From contig CAIUOU010000107.1 in assembly GCA_903900845.1 (NCBI GenBank), forward strand, positions 1-56,463: a stretch of 56,463 nucleotides of DNA. The letters run 5' to 3'. This document shows positions 2 to 23,177 of this stretch, piece by piece (positions within the stretch are counted from its first letter, which is position 1; each line of letters opens with the position of its first letter). The notes under the pieces were generated by a model that did no database searches, had not been told where the DNA came from, and saw only the letters and a list, made by a program, of their open reading frames with translations. This stretch comes from an uncultured Opitutia bacterium (GTDB lineage: Bacteria; Verrucomicrobiota; Verrucomicrobiia; Opitutales; Opitutaceae). Both the position numbers and the translations under genes were made by a program.

Positions 2-2680
2 GCCGCCGCCCTTTTCGCCGCGCTGGTCGCGATCCTGCTGGCGCTGGAAAAAGCCCCCGGCTTTCGCGCGGCTCTCGCGGCCGCCGCCGACCGACGGTCG
101 ACGCGTCCGGCTCTCGCCGTGATGCTTGCCGCCGCCGTGGCTGTGATCGCGAGCGCCTATCCGATAGTGTTCCTGGGCCGGAGCCTCGTCTCACCCAACC
201 TCGGCACGACGCTGCTCTACGACAAGTTCCCCACGCTGCCGGGCTACCGTTCGAGCGCGATGACCGACCCGAAGCTGTCCGACGTCGGCGCTGTGATGTG
301 GCAGCACGTGCCCTTTTCCGTGATCCAGCACCGTGCGCTTTCGCAGGGAGAATTGCCGCTGTGGAACCGCTACAACGCGCTGGGGGTACCATTGCTCGGC
401 CAAGGGCAATCGATGTTCGGCGACCCGCTCCATTTTCTGGTCATCGCGGCCCGCGGCGCCGCCTGGGCCTGGGACCTGAAATACCTGATCGCGAAGTGGC
501 TCTTCGCGTCCGGACTCGGACTAGCCGTACTCGCGCTGATCGAGGGACGAAGGGACCAAAGAACTAAGGGACCAAGGGACAAAGGGACTAACCGACCAAA
601 GGACGAGGCGCGATCGGAGGCGGGCTCCCACGCCTCACTCTCTGATTCCCTCACTCCCCCACTCCCTCCGTCCCTTAGTCCCTTAGTCCTTTCCTCCCTT
701 GGCCCCTTGATCGTCGCCTTCGCGGCGCCGTTCATCGGCTTCTTCCTCTACCGGATCAACCACCCGGCGTACTTCAGCCTCTGCTATGCCCCGTGGCCCC
801 TTTACTGCCTGCTGCGCGTGGCGAACGCGGGGGATCGCCGCGGGGTCACGCTGTGGTCGGCCGGGTTGCTGGTGGCGAATCTAGCCCTGATGAACAGCGG
901 CACGGTGAAGGAGGCGTACATGCTGCTGCTCAGTGTGAACTTCTCCGGGCTATGCGTTCTGCTGGCGGGGCGCGGCGGCTGGCGCGAAAAGTTCTCGAAA
1001 CTCGGGACGCTCGCGTGGTTCGGGCTTCTCTTCGTCCTCATCACCGCGCCGGTGTGGAACACATTCCTGAACACCCTGCGCCAGGCCTACACGGGCTACA
1101 ACGCCGCCAGCGCTTACCAGCTGCAGCCTTCGCTGCTGCTCGGGCTCTTCGACGAGATCTTCCACCGCCCGCTGCTCTCGCGGAACCAGGTCTACGCGCC
1201 GTCACTCAACTTCCTGCTCCTCGGCGGGCTGCTCCTGTTTCTCGCCACGCTGCGGCGGCAATTCGACCGGCCGGCCGTCATGGCGCTCGCCGCCAGCTCC
1301 CTCCTGCCGCTGGCCCTCGCTTTCGGTTTCATCTCCCCCGACTGGATCGTGAAGATCCCGTTCCTGAGCAACGTCGCCCACCTCGATAACACGTTCTCCT
1401 GCGTGCTGATCGTCCTGTGGGCCGTGCTGGCCGGAGTCGGTTTCACGCAGGCCGCCGGGCGACTCGGCACCCGCGAAGGTCGCGACGACCTCATCATCGC
1501 CGGGCTCCTGCTGTTCGGGCTAGTCTTCGCATGGCTTGCGTTCGGCCACGCCGCCCACCGCCCGATCTACGGGCCGGTCTTCACCGTGAACCAGCCGGGG
1601 CGGACCCTGCTGATCGACCCGTTCATCTTGGATTACCTGATCGCACTCCTCGCCGCGCTCACCGGACTCGCGGTCGCCGCGCACCTAGCTCTGCGCCGCC
1701 GACGTCTGACCGCGGCCACCGGCCTGGCGATCGCGGGCTGCACGGTTCTCCTCCTCTGGCGCCATGGCGCGCACGATTCCGCACTGGGTTTCGAGGACTT
1801 CGTCAACCGCCCGACGCGCCGGGCCGATTTCCACGCCCGCTCCGAGGCCATGGAGACCGCTCGCGCCGCGCAGGAAGGAACCCCGGCCCGCGGCTACGGC
1901 CTGCATGGTAATTTCTTCCCCGGCTGGACCGGTGTCTACGGGCTGGAAGGCGTGCACGGCCCCGACGCGCTCGTGAACCCGTTTGTGCGCGAACTGATGG
2001 GCGCGTCCGGCATCACGCGCATGTGGGATTGGCGCTTCTACGCGGAGGCCCGCGAAGCGGGAAATGTCCGGCCGTTTTTCGACGCCCTGAACGTGCGCCA
2101 CTATTTTGACCTCGCGAGCGACCAGGGCGTGCTCGGCCGCGCCCTGCGCCTCGTGCGCACTGCGGACCTCGACGTCTACGAGAGCCCGACCGCGTGGCCG
2201 CGAGCGTTCTTCAGCGACCGGGTGGTGGTGTATGAGACACCCGCCGAGCTCGCCGCGCGCATCCGGGCGGCCGCCGGCCGGCCGTTCGCCGCGTTGCAGA
2301 GGAAGGATCACTCCTCCCAAGGAATGCTTTCGGCGGTGCCCCGCGCTGAGACCGGTGCCACGGTGAACCCCGCGCGCGATTACCGACTCACCGCCAATTC
2401 CACCTCTTTCACGGTGAAGGCCAACGGTCCCGGGGTGATCACGGTCCTCGAAGCTCACTGGCCCGGCGACTTCCGTGCGACCCTTAATGGCCGGGAGGCC
2501 GGCGTCGTCCGCGTTAACCACGCCTTCAACGGGATCGCGGTGCCGGCCGCCGGCGAGCACCGGGTGACCCTTCGCTACCACCCGCGAGATCTTTCCCGCG
2601 ACCTGATCTTGTCCGCCCTCGGCGCGGCGCTGCTCGCCGCGACCCTGCTCCTCGCGCTCCGCCCGGCGCGCCGCGCATGA
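2..2680 (+). CDS. YfhO-like polytopic membrane protein (5' end outside window)
   Basis: The reading frame is open from the window edge, so the N-terminus is missing; the GTG at 119 is only the first start codon visible inside. The protein has many hydrophobic segments, then a soluble C-terminal part and a last membrane helix. The end, with an LEAHWPGDF segment, an asparagine-rich turn and an AGEHRVTLRYHP segment, resembles the C-terminus of YfhO-family proteins, which are linked to glycosylation of cell-wall or lipid-linked polymers. It is the first gene seen of an operon and overlaps the next gene by ATGA. About 57 residues (codons 542-712) are hydrophilic, Arg/Lys-rich then Ser/Pro/Leu-rich, and derive from an inserted palindromic element. 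The substrate is unknown. Confidence 0.75.
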   Translation, partial: AAALFAALVAILLALEKAPGFRAALAAAADRRSTRPALAVMLAAAVAVIASAYPIVFLGRSLVSPNLGTTLLYDKFPTLPGYRSSAMTDPKLSDVGAVMWQHVPFSVIQHRALSQGELPLWNRYNALGVPLLGQGQSMFGDPLHFLVIAARGAAWAWDLKYLIAKWLFASGLGLAVLALIEGRRDQRTKGPRDKGTNRPKDEARSEAGSHASLSDSLTPPLPPSLSPLVLSSLGPLIVAFAAPFIGFFLYRINHPAYFSLCYAPWPLYCLLRVANAGDRRGVTLWSAGLLVANLALMNSGTVKEAYMLLLSVNFSGLCVLLAGRGGWREKFSKLGTLAWFGLLFVLITAPVWNTFLNTLRQAYTGYNAASAYQLQPSLLLGLFDEIFHRPLLSRNQVYAPSLNFLLLGGLLLFLATLRRQFDRPAVMALAASSLLPLALAFGFISPDWIVKIPFLSNVAHLDNTFSCVLIVLWAVLAGVGFTQAAGRLGTREGRDDLIIAGLLLFGLVFAWLAFGHAAHRPIYGPVFTVNQPGRTLLIDPFILDYLIALLAALTGLAVAAHLALRRRRLTAATGLAIAGCTVLLLWRHGAHDSALGFEDFVNRPTRRADFHARSEAMETARAAQEGTPARGYGLHGNFFPGWTGVYGLEGVHGPDALVNPFVRELMGASGITRMWDWRFYAEAREAGNVRPFFDALNVRHYFDLASDQGVLGRALRLVRTADLDVYESPTAWPRAFFSDRVVVYETPAELAARIRAAAGRPFAALQRKDHSSQGMLSAVPRAETGATVNPARDYRLTANSTSFTVKANGPGVITVLEAHWPGDFRATLNGREAGVVRVNHAFNGIAVPAAGEHRVTLRYHPRDLSRDLILSALGAALLAATLLLALRPARRA
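537..713. mobile_element. In-frame palindromic element with 6-bp target duplication
   Basis: The arms at 538-587 and 663-712 are inverted repeats matching at 41 of 50 positions, separated by about 75 nt. The left arm is built of 8-bp units of the type ACYAAGGG. TGATCG occurs at both 537-542 and 708-713, which fits a target-site duplication. Element plus one duplicate is 171 bp, exactly 57 codons, without a stop, so the host frame survives. Removing it joins Leu-Ile directly to Val-Ala-Phe. It carries no gene of its own and looks like a MITE-type element. The family is not recognised. Confidence 0.8.
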
Positions 2681-22709: not shown

Positions 22710-22745
22710 CGGAATCGGGTGGGGAATGCGGAAAGCCGGAGGAGG

Positions 22746-23177
22746 AATCTGGGACTCAGGAAATCAGGACTCAGAGCGCTCGCCCCCGATGCGCTTTATC
22801 CCGAGAGGCATGGAGCCGAAGTTGAGGATCAGACCTGAATCCAACCCGGCCGCTTTCATCTGCGAGCGGCCGACGGCGAAAAAAATATTCTCAATCTCGC
22901 GCACGGCCTTGAGCTCAACCAGCAACACTTCCTCCACGAGGAGATCCAACCGGTGCTCCCCGATTTTCCGTCCCTCGTAAGTCAAAGGAACCACCTTCTG
23001 TGTTTCGTGGCGGACTCCGCGGCGCTCCAGCTCCACGCACAAGGCGGACTCGTAAACGGACTCCAAAAATCCTGGTCCGAGGACTTGATTAACCCTGATG
23101 GCGGCTTCGATGACACGCCCGCTGACGTCACGATTGGCGAGTTCCCCCATTTCTCCTGATTCCCTGATTTCCAGATT
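22746..23177 (-). mobile_element. Palindrome-bounded cassette carrying a GxxExxY gene
   Basis: Inverted repeats at 22746-22769 and 23154-23177 match at 21 of 24 positions. Each consists of tandem 8-bp units close to AAATCAGG. They bound a single gene (22764-23150) whose stop codon lies inside the left repeat and whose ribosome-binding AGGAG comes from the right repeat. The cassette lies 2 bp beyond the nusB stop codon and splits nusB from ftsY. No target-site duplication was seen. Mobility is inferred from the repeats and position. Confidence 0.65.
22764..23150 (-). CDS. GxxExxY family protein, PD-(D/E)XK-like
   Basis: The protein has 128 residues, the usual length for the GxxExxY family. 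The signature GFLESVY lies at residues 27-33 after a helix (VIEAAIRVNQVLGPG). A PD-(D/E)XK-like core follows: Asp69 in EHRLDLLV, then Glu79-Leu-Lys81 in LLVELKAV. The family is widespread in Verrucomicrobiota and has no settled function; a nuclease role is inferred from the fold. The ATG at 23150 has AGGAG only 2 nt upstream. A GTG at 23183, overlapping the nusB stop, is in frame and would add 11 residues. It appears to be an insertion in the nusB-ftsY run. Confidence 0.85.
   Translation of the reverse strand: MGELANRDVSGRVIEAAIRVNQVLGPGFLESVYESALCVELERRGVRHETQKVVPLTYEGRKIGEHRLDLLVEEVLLVELKAVREIENIFFAVGRSQMKAAGLDSGLILNFGSMPLGIKRIGGERSES

Follow-up and report, generated by a model that had tools for sequence, protein, structure and literature searches.

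A palindromic insert of inverted 8-bp arrays in a YfhO-like membrane-protein gene, probably an ORF-less relative of elements that enclose PF05635 genes

How does a long DNA palindrome come to lie within the coding sequence of a membrane protein, and does it belong to a wider class of elements? The question is raised by the first gene of the window, that is, of the whole stretch of 56,463 nucleotides that was analysed, which comes from the genome of an uncultured Opitutia bacterium (G000 in the following). The gene encodes a large multi-spanning membrane protein resembling YfhO, with a match to PF09586 (E 5.9e-5, 22.1 bits) that is below the curated cut-off of 28.5 bits. A preliminary description, made from the letters alone, had proposed that a palindromic element is inserted in it in frame, and this is confirmed: the insert at 537-713 is real, and its parts are collected in Table 1. 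Between the arms 538-587 and 663-712, 41 of 50 positions can pair, with TGATCG at 537-542 and again at 708-713, and a repeat search extends the inverted pair to 55 nt at 80% (533-587 and 663-717). Folded as RNA, the segment 531-720 reaches -95.7 kcal/mol (z -7.4), a stability equalled by none of 200 shuffles; folded as DNA, it has a z of -4.3 and is equalled by one shuffle of 200. The 171 bp from 537 to 707 amount to 57 codons without a stop, the frame of the gene being open from base 2 to base 2680, and on the + strand the element has no stop in this frame versus three and four in the other two. The peptide so encoded had been called hydrophilic, which holds for its left half, the right half being rich in Ser, Pro and Leu. 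In addition, the element shows several traits of a MITE (terminal inverted repeats, short length and no ORF of its own). A known RNA family was discarded as a candidate, as the window has no Rfam match at the gathering threshold.

Table 1. Coordinates of the insert and of its host gene within the window
Feature	Position	Strand	Remarks
Host gene, large YfhO-like multi-spanning membrane protein	2..2680	+	Open frame; truncated by the left window edge; 892 aa in the window
Palindromic element, including both TGATCG copies	537..713	.	About 50 residues more than the bare loop VLALTRH(T/Q)xAAL
TGATCG, left copy	537..542	+	
Left arm, made of tandem AAGGGACN units (8 bp)	542..605	+	Period-8 segment 543-606; best three units 21/21
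Central spacer	606..641	.	Spacer of G026 similar; insert spacers of G003, G018, G016 and G012 not alignable by eye
Right arm, inverted array of the AAGGGACN unit	642..710	-	From the period-8 scan; 653-708 scores 20/21
Related unit GAGGGAGT	inner part of the right arm (642..710)		
TGATCG, right copy	708..713	+	Probably not a target duplication

The arms are themselves repetitive, each of them being a tandem array of a degenerate 8-bp unit and the right one the reverse complement of the left, which can be written as (AAGGGACN)n ... (NGTCCCTT)n. These two arrays (543-606 and 642-710) are the only period-8 segments of the window at a threshold of 24 of 32 positions, and at the same threshold the periods 7, 10, 11 and 13 give no segment anywhere in it. 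As for TGATCG, which had been described as a direct repeat at each edge, its status as a duplicate is not convincing, because it is lacking at both edges of the copy in G026, because GATC is its own reverse complement and also occurs within the arms, and because the empty site of G001 already has GCGCTGA at the left and ATCGTCGC at the right. Given the absence of TGATCG from the sister copy in G026, a target-site duplication is improbable, and the hexamer looks incidental.

Is the insert an old part of the protein or an addition to it? A match to the host gene is present in 24 of the 27 genomes of the genus, its own included, and the alignment of these homologues (24 rows from 23 genomes, with two copies from G022, and with the partial copy of G010 excluded here and from the tree) keeps the frame in all 24 rows. 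The insert is missing from 13 of them, 11 of which have the bare loop (G001, G017, G020, G015, G011, G021, G019, G009, G007, G014 and the second copy of G022) and two, G006 and G008, a slightly longer one. Inserts made of the AAGGGACN unit are found at this same loop in six rows (G000, G026, G003, G018, G016 and G012), with different lengths and with spacers that, except in G026, differ from that of G000; the arms of the six fit the unit at 15-21 of 21 positions (at least 15 for the right arm of G026), the 99th percentile of shuffles being 14. The five other rows (G022, G023, G013, G024 and G025) have intermediate loops that differ in sequence, and none of the aligned rows free of the repeats has the same extra residues. 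Faint traces of an insert can be seen by eye in the intermediate loops of G022, G023 and G013.

The genes that carry the insert have diverged far from each other. At four-fold sites, the identity between non-sister carriers is 0.38-0.60, versus 0.36-0.42 expected at saturation, the pair G012 and G000 giving 0.60 where 0.41 is expected. On the gene tree, a single clade of the six carriers is rejected (p_AU 2.6e-32), the presence of the insert requires 5 changes (with intermediate or degenerate loops scored as absent), and G011, which is empty, is placed next to the insert-bearing G016 with support 91/78. Because the same unit stands at the same site in six species despite such divergence of the gene, the arms have probably been renewed or re-inserted; a relic as old as this and evolving neutrally would be expected to retain little of the unit. 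Probably, other copies have served to renew the arms, or else insertion at this site has happened repeatedly.

Where else does the element occur? The 177-bp query has a full match only to itself in its own genome, each of the other 18 matches corresponding to one arm region, and among the matches listed elsewhere the single near full-length one is that to the orthologous copy of G026 (84%, query positions 2-172). A family of dispersed 165-bp elements, which the preliminary description would lead one to expect, was not found and was rejected, as the arm regions alone match besides that orthologue. What does recur in the genome is the 8-bp unit: a pattern of two AAGGGACN units has 25 matches there versus 1 for the reversed control, and 231 versus 0 in G018. 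Neither of the two observations that the preliminary description had named as refuting was made. The two-unit pattern is present in 19 of the 27 genomes of the genus and the AAGGGACN pattern in 4 of 93 genomes of the class, and named genomes contain at least 120 AAGGGACN stretches. Arrays occur in at least 14 named phyla, including Bacteroidota, Acidobacteriota, Planctomycetota and Verrucomicrobiota, a list that is to be read as a lower bound and not as a frequency.

The unit is also found between genes. Among the matches listed, 46 pairs of arrays lie less than 1.5 kb apart, of which 29 point towards each other (convergent) and 4 away from each other (divergent), and many arrays in the loci of named genomes have no called partner. 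Long open frames contain 1 of the 12 distinct arrays of the own genome versus 18 of 70 random positions, and 20 of 107 arrays of other genomes versus 276 of 535 random positions, the window copy being excluded from the count as too near the edge. Copies within genes look like rare survivors, since arrays are depleted from long open frames.

Do the arrays enclose anything elsewhere? In the own genome, the AAGGGACN arrays at C165:27412-28005 enclose a gene of PF05635 / TIGR02436 (G000:C165:27480-27926) that has a relative of solved structure in 2gsc (E 8e-22). The genome has four PF05635 genes, located on C165 and C110 and none of them in the window copy; two exceed the threshold at period 8 and a third at period 7, and the fourth is below every threshold, its arms being visible by eye only. 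Arrays of AAGGGACN also surround a PF05635 gene in G018 (C245) and G016 (C639), as well as in a Bacteroidales MAG (L179) and an Acidobacteriaceae MAG (L195), and among the matches listed the array loci of named genomes hold four such genes, two of them between arrays and the others 765 bp and 2 kb off. The possibility that AAGGGACN is the general unit of PF05635 loci was rejected, as only 2 of the first 30 loci of the genus have it, the rest having other units or none called.

A scan that presupposes no unit, applied to those 30 loci, found period-7 arrays at the gene ends, with a threshold of 19 over 28 bp that was set after a first look at these loci. Among 58 loci from the class, 32 of the 37 period-7 and 5 of the 7 period-8 segments lie no more than 160 bp from the gene, a zone that makes up 11% of the sequence, and the control periods 5, 10, 11 and 13 give two segments, neither near the gene. 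Thirty further loci, 29 of them from other phyla, were scanned with the 24-of-32 threshold and have 13 of 21 period-8 and 8 of 16 period-7 segments near the gene, together with two control segments, again neither near it. Taking 87 loci together (best-scoring matches rather than a random sample, L301 having been removed because it duplicates L237), 101 of the 174 flanks pass at period 7 and 32 at period 8, compared with 3, 1, 0 and 2 for the control periods 6, 9, 10 and 11. Both flanks pass in 52 of the 87 loci, all 52 having one period common to the two sides, and the left unit and the reverse complement of the right one share 5.9 matches, versus 3.7 between loci. With the flanks defined by the stop codon, 78 of the 87 loci have one or more passing sides and 47 have two, versus none of 30 response-regulator controls. 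In a test free of any period, 38 of 86 PF05635 loci and 0 of 29 response-regulator loci exceed the 99th percentile of swapped flanks, one locus of each set having been dropped for too short a flank; the gene ends of the response regulators, and of the GxxExxY genes discussed below, are approximate (typed or fixed gene lengths).

The association between PF05635 genes and inverted arrays extends over several phyla. PF05635 is present in 25 of 27 genomes of the genus and in 63 of 93 of the class, often several times per genome, and in 28 of 30 chosen array-bearing genomes versus 0 of 14 control genomes, where the 28 of 30 comes from loci picked by hand out of at least 120 (29 from other phyla and one genus member) and is no unbiased rate. 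The units differ from element to element, and AAGGGACN in particular is confined to some lineages, the architecture being the widespread feature.

Does the unit follow the protein? The period (7 or 8) does so on the PF05635 tree, with 11 changes compared with a shuffled mean of 16.3 and none of 2000 shuffles as few, on a tree of 83 of the 87 proteins (four were left out for a stop or for having fewer than 90 residues) that is poorly resolved, with few columns and many open forks. Between proteins at a tree distance below 0.5 whose loci have no detected homology in the outer flanks, 90% of 21 pairs, which stem from few clusters, share the unit (6 or more matches), versus 2-10% in the more distant classes of pairs. 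Over all pairs, protein distance and similarity of the units are weakly correlated, 19 of 300 permutations being equally strong, and AAGGGACN accompanies proteins of several branches. The idea that each protein strictly keeps its own unit even at large distances was rejected owing to that weak correlation.

The intergenic slot on C165 has, in turn, different contents in different genomes. In G000 it is occupied by the PF05635 element and in G026 and G012 by a GxxExxY gene; G018 has an array on a single side, the arrays of G003 and G016 are degenerate (14-16 of 21), and G023 lacks an array. The ORF of G026 was assigned to GxxExxY (TIGR04256, PF13366, PD-(D/E)XK nuclease superfamily) by HMM search, and the gene of G012 was read as such by eye. 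An exchange of cargo between conserved arms seems doubtful for this slot, the left edge in G026 scoring 14 of 21 and the right edge having no called array. In the class, inverted repeats flank GxxExxY loci above the 99th percentile of the swap control in 16 of 30 cases (response regulators, 0 of 29), and they are less regularly spaced, for example CCACGAAGG...CCTTCGTGG. These genes were rejected as regular members with period 7 or 8, as 3 of 30 loci pass.

What, then, is the insert in the membrane-protein gene? It probably belongs, as a MITE-like form without an ORF, to a class of small palindromic elements that are built of inverted degenerate 7- or 8-bp arrays and whose complete form encloses a PF05635 (S23/IVP) gene; since the window copy has no ORF, it is linked to PF05635 through the shared unit and the shared architecture. 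According to this proposal, the two inverted arrays would pair as a hairpin, the small protein would probably recognise the arrays, and these may be copied or renewed by that protein or by enzymes of the host that act on the hairpin. Copies without an ORF might spread or persist via their arms alone, with the help of a partner acting in trans or of the host's repair. The loci compared showed neither a transposition event nor a precise junction or a clean target duplication. The window copy would lie in a loop between two membrane helices, in the sole + frame left open, and because of this position it is presumably translated as a linker and tolerated, its effect on the protein being perhaps neutral. 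A wider proposal, to which slightly less than even confidence is given, is that the S23/IVP four-helix-bundle proteins may be the hallmark of minimal mobile elements found across phyla, with inverted 7- or 8-bp arrays, one small gene and a lineage-specific unit, in which the gene can be shed while the hairpins persist and which occasionally insert in frame, the intervening sequences (IVS) of rRNA being a special case.

The same observations might be explained without any later mobility, by one ancient insertion at the loop that then underwent decay and deletion in some species and whose arms were kept alike by slippage or conversion. The presence of the same unit at the same loop in six species would be the natural outcome, the five intermediate loops (three with their faint traces) could be its remnants, the divergence at four-fold sites is incomplete for some pairs, such as G012 and G000, and gene conversion between arrays would maintain the consensus. 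However, the carriers are scattered on the gene tree with empty species nested among them, the spacers are not alignable by eye, and a unit so well kept requires some renewal anyway, all of which leaves this history unlikely. Could the insert instead have been selected as a useful linker of the host protein, the palindromic nature of its DNA being incidental? The frame is indeed maintained in the 24 aligned rows, but length and sequence vary, 13 of the rows have the short loop only, and AAGGGACN stands between genes too, so that selection of this kind is highly improbable. An assembly artefact or a chance palindrome has a practically negligible probability, given that the same loop is occupied in six assemblies and that none of the window's 110 other 500-bp tiles contains a 50-nt inverted pair better than 31 of 50 positions, compared with 41 of 50 here.

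A different alternative accepts the mobility and attributes it to an unrelated transposase or to RNA copying, the PF05635 genes being passengers in stable hairpins. The four-helix bundle is not known to have a catalytic centre, which would suit a passenger, and so would the finding that GxxExxY genes lie between inverted repeats as well (with the contrast to response regulators given above) and that the C165 slot holds, depending on the genome, the PF05635 element, a GxxExxY gene, or a degenerate array or none. Against it, the period of 7 or 8 tracks the PF05635 tree, poorly resolved as this is, and close proteins retain the unit at loci without detected homology in the flanks. A mere passenger role is considered somewhat unlikely, and the membership of the insert in a class of elements with a PF05635 gene in their complete form is the reading preferred here.

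How do such elements compare with those already described? REPINs are short palindromic repeats that are believed to rely on a protein of their own, the RAYT, which is a Y1 (TnpA-REP) transposase; the elements treated here are likewise short palindromic repeats, but the protein found with them is PF05635 and neither a Y1 nor another known transposase, and their arms repeat a very short unit in tandem. In cyanobacteria, degenerate tandem repeats with units of 7 or 8 bp are dispersed in the genomes as STRR. Further short repeats are known from other work: for TAACTGA repeats, 169 sets of direct repeats and one inverted set have been described, with a repeat-binding protein suggested as the mobile part (PMC4679880), and in Geobacter metallireducens paired octamer or heptamer sites, on opposite strands and at a variable distance, were read as binding sites of a regulator (PMC2700814). 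Degenerate and dispersed units of 7 or 8 bp are common to all three cases and to the arrays presented here, the difference being that no link to PF05635 or to an ORF-bearing element is drawn in the available portions of PMC4679880 and PMC2700814. In the open-licence literature searched, no link of PF05635 or four-helix-bundle genes with inverted 7- or 8-bp arrays was found. Tying PF05635 genes to scattered degenerate 7- or 8-mer hairpins would give a testable role to both.

The closest comparisons are with two systems in which a palindrome interrupts a gene. In Leptospira and Coxiella, according to the available portion of PMC4990558, the IVS of rRNA are palindromes with complementary arms, with or without an S23p (PF05635-type) ORF, which are located in 23S or 16S rRNA, are excised by RNase III, show a patchy distribution and are inserted at sites where a loop is tolerated. 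As far as that portion goes, the elements presented here share with them the complementary arms that form a stem, the optional S23p ORF, the patchy distribution and the location in a tolerated loop, but they occupy intergenic positions or, in rare cases, a protein-coding gene, and they have arrays of a 7- or 8-bp unit, which the same portion of PMC4990558 does not describe for IVS. The window copy, in particular, has the stem arms, but it lies in a protein gene instead of rRNA and contains no S23p ORF, which other copies with the AAGGGACN unit do have. The palindromic elements of Rickettsia (RPE), for their part, are palindromes of about 150 bp that lie in frame in protein genes and are translated, as stated in the available portion of PMC10969869. 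Judging from the open frame and from the in-frame alignment, the window palindrome appears to share such a position, and the likeness is one of concept, as the preliminary description had put it, the architecture being different: here there are arrays of an 8-bp unit, in another phylum, with a PF05635 gene in other copies. Moreover, RPE are found in frame inside genes unusually often, whereas AAGGGACN arrays are depleted from long open frames. Since the insert thus departs from the features that define each of them, it is filed under neither rRNA IVS nor RPE. The tie between PF05635 genes and arrays would place the intervening sequences of rRNA in a wider setting, and the insert in the YfhO-like gene is a case outside Rickettsia of a palindrome that has entered a protein in frame.

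The window perhaps holds a second palindromic small-ORF element at 22740-23177, a region in which short repeats of the CTCAGGA/TCCTGA type flank a GxxExxY gene (PF13366) on either end. In the right flank of this gene a period of 8 passed, with 19/28, and the repeats of the left flank were read by eye.

Position of the GxxExxY gene in the window
Feature	Coordinates	Strand
GxxExxY gene (PF13366)	22788-23129	-

Elsewhere, GxxExxY genes are surrounded by inverted pairs of repeats, e.g., CACGGAT and CACGAAG, as seen in the flanks of the loci L347, L349, L357, L360, L367, L368 and L370, and in the window's own genome scattered motifs resembling such repeats adjoin the arrays of degenerate 8-bp units at L005, L006 and L015.

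One-sided expansion of the arrays may also occur, since long direct runs (~130-310 bp) are found without a called inverted partner close by (L110:8-143, L128:1641-1944 and L185:7101-7410). At L002, L009, L015 and L114, the array starts at or a few bases from the apparent stop codon, read by eye, of the upstream gene, and the array unit can itself provide TAA or TGA.

As for genomic neighbourhoods, three genes of the S23/IVP family (PF05635) lie inside ~5 kb of the own genome (L304; G000:C165:21500-29500), with putative sugar-phosphate and polysaccharide genes, read by eye, on both sides. Surface-polysaccharide clusters may be gathering places of PF05635/array elements; in five contigs of other genomes of the genus (G003:C181, G008:C22, G011:C29, G020:C7 and G023:C50), the YfhO-like gene and a PF05635 gene are at most ~25 kb apart.
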